Positions 55,332 to 58,674 of a DNA stretch of 64,000 nucleotides are shown here, in pieces. This stretch comes from Bremerella sp. TYQ1 (lineage in GTDB: Bacteria; Planctomycetota; Planctomycetia; Pirellulales; Pirellulaceae). The notes under the pieces were generated by a model. That model was not told the origin of the DNA. It did not search any database and saw only the letters and a list, made by a program, of their open reading frames with translations. The translations under genes were made by a program, and so were the position numbers. How positions within the stretch are numbered: the first letter of the stretch is position 1; every line of letters starts with the position of its first letter. The stretch lies in the NCBI RefSeq assembly GCF_020150455.1, contig NZ_CP083740.1:3968001-4032000 (forward strand), written 5' to 3'.

Positions 55332-56120
55332 ATGATTGTCATGCCACCCGAGGCGCAAGAGCGTCTTGACCGAATTGAAGAGGTCTTAAAGCCGCAGCGG
55401 CAGGAACTGCTCGATCATCCTGTTTACGGACGTATCGGCAATGCGGCCGCGCTGAAGGTTTTCATGCAGTACCATGTCTTTGCGGTGTGGGACTTTATGT
55501 CGCTGCTCAAAGCACTGCAGCTGAAACTGACCTGCACGACAGTTCCCTGGGTGCCGACAGAAAACAATCTCGGCCGGCGTTTGGTCAACGAAATCGTTCT
55601 GGGCGAAGAGAGCGATGAAGATGGCGAAGGGGGATTCTTAAGTCACTTCGAGCTATACCAAGCCTCGATGCAGCAAATGGGAGCCGATGGCTACCTGATC
55701 GACCGCTTCCTGCAAAAGATCGAGCAAGGCCGCGACGTTACTGCCGCATTGCACGAAGCCCAACTGCCCCGTTCCATCGTGCAATTCGTGACTAACACGT
55801 TCGACCTGATCGCCAGCGACAATTTGTGCGCGATCGCCTCAGGCTTTACTTACGGCCGCGAAGACTTGCTGCCAGGCGTGTTCCAGAAAATCGTCGACCA
55901 AGTGAATCAAGAACTTTCTGGCTCGGCGTCGAAGTTTGTCTTCTACTTAGATCGCCACATCGAGCTCGATGGCGATACGCACGGACCGATGGCCCACAGA
56001 CTGCTTTCTCACTTGTGCGGCGACGACGACGAAAAGTGGCAAGCCGCCGAAGATGCTGCCGTGCGAAGCTTGGAAGCCCGGCAACTGCTGTGGAACGGCA
56101 TGCTTGATGCGCTCGCGTAA
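55332..56120 (+). CDS. DUF3050 family protein
   Basis: The 262-residue product matches the DUF3050 pattern: HPVYGRIGNAAALKVFMQYH, VFAVWDFMSLLKALQ, then TDNxGRRLVNEIVLGEESDE-type sequence (TENNLGRRLVNEIVLGEESD), FTYGREDLLPGVFQKIVDQV, and YLDRHIELDGDTHGPMA. Conserved His and Glu residues and an all-helical composition suggest a heme-oxygenase-like fold, perhaps binding metal. The function is unknown. It converges with the structured RNA described just downstream. Confidence 0.9.
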   Translation: MIVMPPEAQERLDRIEEVLKPQRQELLDHPVYGRIGNAAALKVFMQYHVFAVWDFMSLLKALQLKLTCTTVPWVPTENNLGRRLVNEIVLGEESDEDGEGGFLSHFELYQASMQQMGADGYLIDRFLQKIEQGRDVTAALHEAQLPRSIVQFVTNTFDLIASDNLCAIASGFTYGREDLLPGVFQKIVDQVNQELSGSASKFVFYLDRHIELDGDTHGPMAHRLLSHLCGDDDEKWQAAEDAAVRSLEARQLLWNGMLDALA

Positions 56121-56140: not shown

Positions 56141-56280
56141 AAAAAAACCCGGCGTACGTCTGTTAAGCGTCAACGTACGTCGGGCTCACACCGCGGAAAG
56201 TTGCTTAACGCTCCGTGCGGTGTCCTCGTCCTGCCGCAGATGGTTGGAGCAACCATCCAAAGGGCCCATTCGGCTGGACA
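56141..56280 (-). ncRNA. Candidate structured small RNA, about 140 nt, with intrinsic terminator
   Basis: Read leftward from about 56279, the RNA folds into three stem-loops. SL1 pairs GUCCAGCCG with CGGCAGGAC (56279-56271 with 56236-56228, one A-A mismatch) and encloses a perfect 7-bp hairpin GAUGGUU-GCUCC-AACCAUC. SL2 pairs ACACCGC with GCGGUGU (56223-56217 with 56194-56188). SL3 pairs CCCGACGUACGU with ACGUACGCCGGG (56184-56173 with 56159-56148), followed by seven T residues, a canonical terminator. The SL2 loop contains GUUAAGC and the SL3 loop GCUUAAC, which can pair in a kissing interaction. A promoter sits at the right distance upstream. It does not match 6S, SRP or other families I know by eye. 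Confidence 0.6.
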
Positions 56281-56285
56281 ATTGA

Positions 56286-56314
56286 AACCTAGCATGGTTT
56301 CCCAGGCGAGGCAA
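56286..56314 (-). promoter_or_regulatory. Promoter candidate of the structured small RNA
   Basis: On the minus strand TTGCCT (56314-56309), a 17-bp spacer and TAGGTT (56291-56286), with TG one base before the -10 box (extended -10). The predicted start, about 7 nt further, falls at the first base of the SL1 helix. Confidence 0.5.
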
Positions 56315-56429: not shown

Positions 56430-57269
56430 ATGAGTTCGCCCACGATCGCCATTAACGGAGCCAGCGGCGGAATGGGAGGCCGAATTGCTCAGCGCCTCGC
56501 CCAGCAAAACATCCCTCTGCGTTTGATCGTCCGAGATGCCAGTCGTGCGCCTGATTTACCCCACACCGAAGTCGCTGTTGCTTCGTACGAAGACCGTGCC
56601 GCAATGCTGGAAGCGCTGCGTGGAATCGATACCGTTTTCATGGTTTCTGGTTTTGAAAGTGCCGAGCGCATGCAGATGCATCGCGCGGCGGTCGATGCTT
56701 TCGATGAAGCTGGTATCGGTCGCGTGGTCTACACGTCGTTCCTCAATACGTCGCCAAATGCCACGTTTTCGTTGGCGTGGGATCACTACGAAACGGAACA
56801 ATACCTAGCCGCAAAAGGGCTGCCGTTCGTCGCCCTTCGCAACAGCTTTTATCTCGATCTGCTTCCCCACTTCGTCACCGACGGAGTCATTCGTGGTCCA
56901 GGCGGAGAGGGCCGTTTTGCCCCAGTGGCTCGAGACGACATCGCCGACGTGGCCGCTGCCGTGTTGGTAGATGCCAACCTGGCATCCGGTCCGATCGACG
57001 TAACCGGTCCGGAACTTCTTACTCTGCACGACGTCGCGAAAATCTTGAGCGATGCAACGCAGCAGCCAATTTCCTATCAGCCGGAAACGATCGAGGAGGC
57101 CTACGCGAGTCGAGCCGATCTTGAAGGAAGCGACTTCGAAAAACGTGGCTGGGTGACCAGCTATCAAGCGATCGCGGAAGGCGAACTGGAAGTCGTTTCC
57201 GATACGGTCGAACGCCTGACAGGCCATCCCCCAATGAGCTTGCGTGAGTTCCTGGCCGGTTCTCGGTAA
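56430..57269 (+). CDS. NmrA-like NAD(P)-binding SDR family protein
   Basis: The 279-residue product starts with a Rossmann motif INGASGGMGGRIAQRLA (glycine-rich GASGGMGG) and continues as NmrA/quinone-reductase-2-type (LRLIVRDASRAPDLP, GIDTVFMVSGFESAERMQMH, VVYTSFLNTSPNATF, FVALRNSFYLDLLP). The classical Tyr-x3-Lys catalytic pair is not evident, as usual in atypical SDRs of this group. It could reduce quinones or sense NADP. It stands alone, upstream of rarA on the same strand by 85 bp. Confidence 0.9.
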   Translation: MSSPTIAINGASGGMGGRIAQRLAQQNIPLRLIVRDASRAPDLPHTEVAVASYEDRAAMLEALRGIDTVFMVSGFESAERMQMHRAAVDAFDEAGIGRVVYTSFLNTSPNATFSLAWDHYETEQYLAAKGLPFVALRNSFYLDLLPHFVTDGVIRGPGGEGRFAPVARDDIADVAAAVLVDANLASGPIDVTGPELLTLHDVAKILSDATQQPISYQPETIEEAYASRADLEGSDFEKRGWVTSYQAIAEGELEVVSDTVERLTGHPPMSLREFLAGSR

Positions 57270-57354: not shown

Positions 57355-58674
57355 ATGTCCCTGTTTGAACAAGCGGAAGCCAAAAATTTCGATCGAGCCA
57401 AGCCGCTGGCTGCGCGGATGCGACCTCGCAACTTGGACGAGTTCGTCGGGCAGAAACACTTTCTTGCCGAAGGCAAACTGCTTTGGCGATTGATCAAGTC
57501 GAACCGGCTGACATCGGTGCTGTTTTACGGTCCGCCTGGCTGTGGCAAAACGACCCTCGCGCAACTGCTGGCATCCGAAACGAAATGCCGCTTCCGTCAA
57601 CTCAACGCCGTAACCTCTGGAGTAAAGGAACTTCGCGAAGTCCTTACCGAAGCACAAAGCGAAGTCGCGACCGGCGGACGCAAGACGCTTTTGTTCGTGG
57701 ACGAAATCCATCGCTTCAACAAGTCGCAGCAAGATGCGCTTTTGCCTGATGTCGAAAACGGGATCGTCATTCTTGTCGGAGCAACGACCAGCAATCCATT
57801 CTTTGCGGTCAACAGTGCTCTGGTCAGTCGTAGCCAGATCTTTCAGTTTGAACCCCTTAGCGTGGAAGAAATCCACGAGGTGCTCACCACTGCGCTGAAC
57901 GATCCGCATCGGGGCCTCGGTAAATTCGAGGTGAAACTGGACGACGACGCTGCGCACTTTCTGGGGGAAGTTTGCGACGGGGACGCCCGCCGGGCATTGA
58001 ACGCTTTGGAAATCGGCGTCCTTTCTACCGATCAAAAGCCAATCCACTTCACCAAACAGTTGGCCGAAGAATCGATTCAAAAAAAGGCCGTTCAGTACGA
58101 TCGCGATGGCGACACCCACTACGACACGGCCAGTGCGTTGATCAAAAGTATTCGTGGCAGCGATGTCGACGCGGCCATCTATTGGCTCGCGAAAATGCTC
58201 GAAGGGGGCGAAGACATCCGCTTTATCACGCGGCGGCTGATCATCTCGGCCAGCGAAGACATCGGCAACGCCGACCCTCACGCATTGTCACTGGCCGTTT
58301 CCTGTATGCAGGCCTGTGAAATGATCGGCCTGCCGGAATGCCAACTCACACTTTCGCAAACAGTCGCTTACCTGGCTTGTGCTCCGAAGAGCAACGCGGC
58401 GACTGTCGCGATCGGTGAAGCCAGGGCCGACATCCGCGAAGGGCGCGTCGAACCGGTTCCGACCCACCTTCGCGATTCCCACTACGGCGGGGCGAAGGAC
58501 CTCGGTCACGGCGAAGGCTATCAATATGCCCACAACGCGCCTGATGGCATCGCCGCTCAAAGCTATTTAGCCATCGACCGCGAATACTACCGTCCGGTAC
58601 CACGAGGCTTCGAGGCAACGCTGCAGAAACGGGTCGAAGTCTATCGCAAACGGCTTCGCGGTGAAGAGGAGTAA
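57355..58674 (+). CDS. rarA: Replication-associated recombination protein RarA (MgsA)
   Basis: This AAA+ ATPase acts at stalled replication forks. It has the clamp-loader-like fold: ARMRPRNLDEFVGQKHFLAE, Walker A GPPGCGKT (59-66), Walker B LLFVDEIHRFNKSQQD, sensor GATTSNPFFAVNSALVSR, and the RarA-specific C-terminal tetramerisation domain (RGSDVDAAIYWLAKMLEGGE, HLRDSHYGGAKDLGHGEGYQ). At 439 residues it has normal length. Confidence 0.96.
   Translation: MSLFEQAEAKNFDRAKPLAARMRPRNLDEFVGQKHFLAEGKLLWRLIKSNRLTSVLFYGPPGCGKTTLAQLLASETKCRFRQLNAVTSGVKELREVLTEAQSEVATGGRKTLLFVDEIHRFNKSQQDALLPDVENGIVILVGATTSNPFFAVNSALVSRSQIFQFEPLSVEEIHEVLTTALNDPHRGLGKFEVKLDDDAAHFLGEVCDGDARRALNALEIGVLSTDQKPIHFTKQLAEESIQKKAVQYDRDGDTHYDTASALIKSIRGSDVDAAIYWLAKMLEGGEDIRFITRRLIISASEDIGNADPHALSLAVSCMQACEMIGLPECQLTLSQTVAYLACAPKSNAATVAIGEARADIREGRVEPVPTHLRDSHYGGAKDLGHGEGYQYAHNAPDGIAAQSYLAIDREYYRPVPRGFEATLQKRVEVYRKRLRGEEE

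Follow-up and report, generated by a model that had tools for sequence, protein, structure and literature searches.

An RNA gene in the spacer after a DUF3050 gene

We asked whether the spacer that follows the DUF3050 gene in the window (the whole 64-kb stretch of DNA analysed here) contains a stand-alone RNA gene and, if so, what kind of RNA it would make. A preliminary description had placed here, on the minus strand, a promoter (TTGCCT-17-TAGGTT), a start at the first pair of a 9-bp helix, three consecutive stem-loops and a terminator with seven T residues. Both promoter boxes, separated by 17 nt, and the T run can be read from the sequence (Table 1). The expected start, G56279, is indeed the first base of helix P1, but in the window this helix has only 8/9 pairs, with one A.A mismatch; seven relatives from the genus pair at 9/9. 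A simple consensus scan for promoters and terminators listed neither site of the window RNA, because the scan demands 9/12 matches while the window promoter scores 7, and because it permits loops of 3-8 nt while the window terminator has a loop of 11 nt. Across the family of homologues described below, the best promoter score is at least 8/12 in 25 of the 38 upstream regions long enough for scoring (4.2% in base-shuffled upstream regions), L133 being the only member whose upstream region has no promoter by the scoring rule used, and 40 of the 41 members end in a T run of at least five residues. As judged from these motifs, the RNA has its own promoter and its own terminator, as expected of a stand-alone non-coding RNA gene, and it is presumably transcribed from a sigma70-like promoter.

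The RNA is ∼127-154 nt long across the family. The predicted fold of the window RNA is more stable than those of 200/200 dinucleotide shuffles (z -4.46), and a covariance model matches it from model position 1 to 140 with 162.7 bits, the window sequence being one of the eight from which the model was built. A coding reading was rejected: in the 14 rows listed, neither frames nor starts nor letters are kept, and the short frames shift even inside the genus, with 1-nt indels. We are close to certain that the minus-strand RNA gene and its fold in the window are real.

Table 1. Features of the RNA locus and of its neighbours in the window, in window coordinates.
Feature	Position	Strand	Remarks
-35 box TTGCCT	56309..56314	minus	read from sequence
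-10 box TAGGTT	56286..56291	minus	read from sequence; 6 nt before first RNA base
Whole RNA	56141..56279	minus	139 nt; start inferred from promoter
Helix P1, 5' strand	56271..56279	minus	both-side changes at 9/9 pairs
Palindrome GGGCCC	56262..56267	minus	unpaired in consensus fold, between P1 and P1b
Hairpin P1b (stem and loop)	56239..56257	minus	both-side changes at 8/9 modelled pairs
Loop 1 GCUCC	56246..56250	minus	partner of loop 2 GGAGC (K1)
Helix P1, 3' strand	56228..56236	minus	partner of P1 5' strand
Hairpin P2	56188..56223	minus	7-bp stem ACACCGC/GCGGUGU, large loop 2; 6/7 pairs change on both sides
Loop 2, 5' half GGAGC	56210..56214	minus	partner of loop 1 (K1)
Loop 2, 3' half GUUAAGC	56203..56209	minus	partner of loop 3 (K2)
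Hairpin P3, also terminator stem	56145..56187	minus	both-side changes at 10/15 pairs
Loop 3 GCUUAAC	56162..56168	minus	partner of loop 2 (K2)
Terminator T run, T7 (RNA sense U)	56141..56147	minus	read from sequence
DUF3050 (PF11251) gene	55332..56120	plus	convergent neighbour; context only
NmrA/NAD-binding gene	56430..57269	plus	context only
rarA/mgsA-type AAA gene	57355..58674	plus	divergent from RNA; context only

Homologues in six families of one order

How widely is this RNA distributed? Of 40 genomes searched at the DNA level, eight contain it, all of them from the window's genus, which corresponds to 8/9 of the genus genomes; the ninth, without the RNA, is 68% complete. In the seven other genus members the BLAST match starts 1-11 nt upstream of the -10 box and stops 8-12 nt past the T run, and these limits are as expected of a transcription unit. 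Three covariance models (R1, R2 and R3) were built in turn. R1 matched 15 of 199 family genomes and gave six good matches beyond the genus, in three genera. With R2, 16 of 241 genomes of the window's own family matched at E ≤0.1, 14 of them credibly, and in the order 42 of 396 genomes matched, of which 40 were kept (G366 and G494 were dropped). R3 matched 23 of 119 f17 genomes, 22 once G366 was removed, and both of the f12 genomes (2/2). The 41-member set used below consists of the 40 members kept from the order search and G043 from the family search, from 41 genomes (f1, 14 members; f17, 22; f12, 2; f15, f5 and f7, one each). The window RNA is 56-91% identical to the other 40 members (median 66%). 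No genome gave more than one good copy: G102, G128 and G393 each had a further, weaker match that was discarded (the f17 count of 22/119 leaves out both G366 and the second G393 hit), and the two matches in G035 belong to a single copy interrupted by a contig end, L165 being its 5' part.

Several candidates were rejected. L103 (E 0.07) lies inside a long coding frame with many pairs broken, L118-L121 mostly keep just the outer helix and the terminator hairpin, G494 was dropped at E 0.027, and the match in L209, the sole viral contig hit by the exact pattern, overlaps open reading frames in a poor surrounding match (14.8 bits). L149, the match in G366, looks on inspection like part of an ABC-transporter gene; as it had entered alignment A8 and thus model R3, our conclusions rest on alignment A7 instead.

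Searches of the class (397 genomes) and of the phylum (294 genomes), both sampled from larger groups, gave no match outside the order that we judged to be a member. Weak matches were obtained from six genomes beyond the order (E 0.0016 to 0.007), and L160-L164, L166 and L167 were judged to be chance, most of them being without P1b, loop 2 or P3. L166, which comes from a different family of the phylum, has a P1/P2-like stretch at 1501-1608 with CACGAGGCG and no P3 (E 0.004, one genome of the 294 searched), a resemblance that is probably due to chance. Whenever more than 40 genomes were searched, scoring was limited to the best 8 to 27 candidates per genome, which makes the absence of divergent copies less certain. 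A second search of 40 copy-less genomes, with as many as 81 candidates scored in each, gave weak matches in ten of them, the best at E 0.02; these were judged by score. The RNA family is spread over six families of one order in a patchy manner, as if it had often been lost, and this patchiness (14/241 in the window's own family, 22/119 in f17) fits poorly with a core housekeeping role.

Four helices supported by covariation

Compensatory changes, which the preliminary description had proposed to look for in homologues, are present both in the stems and in the loop-loop pairing. In the eight genus sequences, whose alignment was not fitted to a model, RNAalifold gave 46 pairs, five of them with both-side changes, and two non-pairing cells. 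Alignment A7 holds 31 of the 41 members and was fitted to the model's structure, which biases it in favour of that structure. It has both-side changes at 33/42 pairs, compared to 18.6 in shuffles, and 94.1% of its cells are paired, compared to 34.8-42.5% when the partner strand is slid by 1-3 columns; 0/500 shuffles were as high on any of the five measures. The rows of the alignment are related, so the covariation counts represent non-independent events. The four predicted main helices, P1, P1b, P2 and P3, are supported by covariation, and such a covarying structure is what a stand-alone non-coding RNA gene should have. Of the three stem-loops described initially, the helices themselves thus covary in these 31 members, but the 5' domain consists of P1 enclosing P1b. 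A GG/CC helix that the folding program placed inside loop 2 was rejected, as only 66-68% of its cells pair and it competes with the loop-loop helix K1 (see below); on A7 the two-pair helix inside loop 2 has 68.3% of cells paired and zero pairs with both-side changes.

Two loop-loop helices share loop 2

The loops of the second and third stems had been proposed to lock the RNA into a compact fold through a 7-nt complement. This complement, GUUAAGC/GCUUAAC, is exact in the window, and six of its seven pairs covary, but loop 2 is engaged by two loops: a second, 5-bp helix (K1) would join loop 1 to loop 2 beside the 7-bp helix (K2) between loops 2 and 3. In the window, loop 2 reads GGAGC-GUUAAGC, with the K1 and K2 words following each other without a gap. 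Among 40 members, 200/200 cells are paired in K1 and 275/280 in K2. When the members were reduced to 20 distinct composites, both-side changes were found at 3/5 pairs of K1 and at 6/7 pairs of K2, i.e. at 9/12 pairs together compared to 4.4 in shuffles. In these composites 99.2% of the cells are paired while slid partners reach at most 45%, and 0/500 shuffles were as high on four of the five measures; the fifth measure, further pair types, was not above shuffles, as 181/500 of them reach it. The words themselves differ between members: K1 occurs as GCUCC/GGAGC, GCCUC/GAGGC, GCUUC/GAAGC and ACUUC/GAAGU, and in a wobble form GCUCC/GGAGU, and K2 occurs as 18 word pairs, for example GUUAAGC/GCUUAAC, GUUAGGU/ACCUAAC, GUCAGAC/GUCUGAC and GUUGGAC/GUCCAAC.

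For the 40-member count of K1, loop 1 was picked by a permissive pattern (in L127 it was set by hand, its letters lying upstream of the match). Therefore we repeated the K1 test without any loop 1 pattern: an exact complement of the first five letters of loop 2 is found inside P1 in 32/33 distinct members, compared to 1.87 expected. L148, whose 5' end is cut off, was left out of the K1, K2 and palindrome counts; L127 was left out of the pattern-free test, and L165 stands in its place for the palindrome counts. For K1 to form, the top pair of P1b has to open, and the few pairs that the folding program places inside loop 2 have to give way to K1 and K2.

The large loop 2 is thus complementary to the loops of both neighbouring hairpins, one of which is the predicted terminator hairpin. 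We infer that both K1 and K2 are intramolecular; the covariation as such fits pairing within and between molecules alike.

A shape recognised in trans or an antisense RNA?

What could an RNA of this architecture do? The gene, with its own sigma70-type promoter and its own terminator, would give a compact non-coding RNA in which loop 2 pairs with loop 1 (K1) and with loop 3 (K2), producing a rigid knot. The terminator hairpin would be a structural part of this knot, which means that the RNA would fold fully only once its 3' end has been made. We propose that the RNA may then act in trans as a shape recognised by a protein (or a ligand), as a scaffold or a decoy, and in some members a palindrome may allow two copies to dimerise (see below). 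Taken as a whole, a stand-alone RNA that forms a rigid knot and acts in trans by binding a protein or ligand, not by pairing as an antisense RNA, is the reading that we favour, with somewhat better than even confidence.

Small trans-acting RNAs typically have a size, a promoter and a terminator of this kind, which also suits a different explanation: an antisense RNA whose loops are seeds for mRNAs, the loop-loop pairs being a resting state that targets displace. The palindromic GGGCCC and the linkers, unpaired in the consensus, could be counted in its favour. However, the loops change in concert, which targets scattered over mRNAs would not easily permit, and the stretch left unpaired between P1 and P1b is not the same in a long type of the RNA (f1, f7 and f12; 17 members) as in a short type (f5, f15 and f17; 23 members examined). 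Moreover, because the loops engage their conserved letters with one another, recognition of a shape by a protein or ligand is more likely than an antisense seed. We regard the antisense explanation as a serious but clearly less probable one.

A palindrome in the long-type RNAs

The segment between P1 and P1b of long-type RNAs contains GGGCCC in 13/17 members, and GGATCC, GGACGTCC, TGGATATCCA and the imperfect GGGTCC in one each. A palindrome of at least six letters is found in 11/12 distinct long-type interiors, compared to 2.53 expected from shuffles, and is absent from the 23 short-type members examined. This raises the question of whether the RNA could assemble with itself. The long-type palindrome, that of the window included, is a possible homodimer site, and this is the weakest of the inferences that we draw from the sequences.

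A homodimer, or a larger RNA-only assembly of the OLE type, held together by the palindrome and/or by K1 and K2 formed between molecules, would agree with the recurrence of the palindrome in those 11 interiors in four sequence forms. Adjacent self-complementary letters cannot pair inside one chain, the argument used for the large RNAs OLE and GOLLD (PMC12286853). On the other hand, the 23 short-type members examined do without a palindrome, the 13 long-type copies with the same GGGCCC come from related genomes, GGGTCC is imperfect, and the 8- and 10-letter forms could make a weak hairpin. We therefore consider assembly through RNA alone unlikely as the explanation of the family, and dimerisation would be compatible with either partner binding or antisense action. 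Equally doubtful is the most elaborate form of the idea, an undescribed RNA family with a double loop-loop knot on one loop, closed by the terminator hairpin, in which one branch would dimerise via the palindrome to give an RNA-only complex.

Variable genomic neighbourhood

Do the neighbouring genes point to a target in cis instead? In the window, the DUF3050 gene faces the RNA and ends 20 nt past the RNA terminator, while both the NmrA-type and the rarA/mgsA-type genes point away from the RNA. A further match of the DUF3050 protein, to Haem_oxygenas_2 (PF14518), hints at a haem-oxygenase-like iron enzyme. Within the genus rarA is divergent from the RNA in 8/8 RNA-bearing members, at 116-138 nt in seven of them and at 1.08 kb in the window, and DUF3050 is convergent after the RNA in 4/8. 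Among the eight genus members compared, the NmrA/NAD-binding gene lies between the RNA and rarA in the window genome only and is perhaps a recent insertion at this locus. Beyond the genus, rarA is missing from 1.5 kb on either side of the RNA copies of g34, g36 and g46; we therefore treat the association as local synteny and rejected a functional link between the RNA and rarA. Five planctomycete loci out of 80 obtained from a rarA protein search were searched with R1 and contained no member of the RNA family.

As the neighbouring genes vary between genera, there is no constant cis target and the RNA probably acts in trans. The absence of a constant downstream gene among homologues bears out the earlier claim that this is an independent leftward RNA gene and not a riboswitch of its neighbours. 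The one gene that could have suggested otherwise encodes a helix-turn-helix (HTH) protein, which in 12 genomes lies on the same strand, ∼90-550 nt beyond the RNA, so that the RNA might be a cis-acting leader or attenuator of a downstream gene, e.g. of an XRE-type regulator in f17 and f15. However, this protein (E up to 1e-12) is present in 18/33 RNA-bearing genomes and in 23/47 others, i.e. about equally often with and without the RNA; all f1 and f12 RNA-bearing genomes tested lack it, the window genome included; in six RNA-bearing genomes its gene is on a different contig; and at 19 further HTH loci elsewhere there is no RNA beside it. With the downstream neighbour being convergent in half of the genus members (4/8) and no gene family constantly present downstream on the same strand, a leader function is very improbable, and we rejected it for the HTH gene.

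The XRE/Cro-C1 regulator itself is a protein of ∼165 aa (PF13560, PF01381; L129 1723-2217, with relatives in f17 and f15) with one match per genome in 41/80 of the order genomes examined. Nine f17 genomes have a PolB-type 3'-5' exonuclease gene (assigned to PF10108 in L129) on the upstream side of the RNA (L129 542-1351, L136, L138 and L140-L145), and in the small 2.9-Mb genome G053 an SNF2-type helicase gene adjoins the RNA (L109 7149-9235).

Relation to known RNAs

Finally, we asked whether the RNA belongs to a described family. None of the 4227 families of Rfam 15 reached its gathering score anywhere in the 64-kb window; at the RNA region the only match up to E 10 was to a microRNA model (E 3.2, far below the cut-off), and in ten relatives seven weak matches up to E 1 were found, none over the cut-off and none at the RNA. 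A literature search whose coverage stopped short of supplements and most subscription papers returned no description of this RNA, and a word search of the available text of PMC8632094 found no mention of these organisms. The suggestion that the RNA is undescribed thus holds for Rfam 15 and for the papers searched, with the reservation that the RNA might be the Rhodopirellula-1 motif. Rhodopirellula-1, a candidate RNA from Planctomycetes and Proteobacteria, has no Rfam accession and so lies beyond the reach of the Rfam searches; its table entry gives its status as an RNA as ambiguous and its role as probably cis-regulatory (Weinberg 2010, PMC2864571). Compared to that table entry (PMC2864571), the window RNA covaries strongly and has no constant downstream gene.

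The closest RNAs in idea, with no detected kinship, are OLE, ROOL and GOLLD, structured bacterial RNAs with kissing loops; covarying loop palindromes of OLE and GOLLD are taken as a sign of intermolecular pairing (PMC12286853). The window RNA would share the kissing loops with them, and the reasoning from palindromes may apply to it, whereas those RNAs, as described there, are large and ornate and the window RNA has ∼140 nt and matches no Rfam family. The RNA can also be compared to purine riboswitches and other kissing-loop aptamers, in which a loop-loop helix locks hairpins together. The window RNA would share this principle but differs in three respects: no downstream gene is kept, a single loop takes part in both loop-loop helices, and the terminator hairpin supplies one of its partners.

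6S RNA (RF00013), like the window RNA a stand-alone small RNA of similar length, forms a long rod with a central bubble. The preliminary description did not recognise the window RNA as 6S, and we reached the same conclusion. That it might be a divergent 6S RNA missed by Rfam's model could be argued from the window genome, which has no RF00013 match up to E 10, and from the other f1 and f12 RNA-bearing genomes tested, which have none at E ≤0.1, but G272 and G325 each hold this RNA together with a separate 6S RNA over the Rfam cut-off, weaker 6S matches occur in another three RNA-bearing genomes, and the fold of the window RNA has no 6S-like rod, so that this identity is barely credible and was rejected. 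Independently of this, the Rfam 6S model gave 6S-sized matches (E ≤0.1) in 13/40 order genomes (L210-L213 and nine further genomes), three of them, including G272 and G325, over the cut-off and 10 under it; with 10/13 under the cut-off, the 6S RNAs specific to this order may be under-annotated.

To the preliminary description we add the second loop-loop helix (K1), the palindrome, the synteny with rarA inside the genus and the wider distribution of the RNA. To our knowledge, regulatory RNA has been little explored in planctomycetes. The RNA family described here is statistically firm and, at ∼140 nt, small enough for experiment, its loop-loop contacts can be predicted base by base, and its terminator hairpin would double as an element of tertiary structure. 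The family is thus well suited to structure determination and to the question of what such compact RNAs do.
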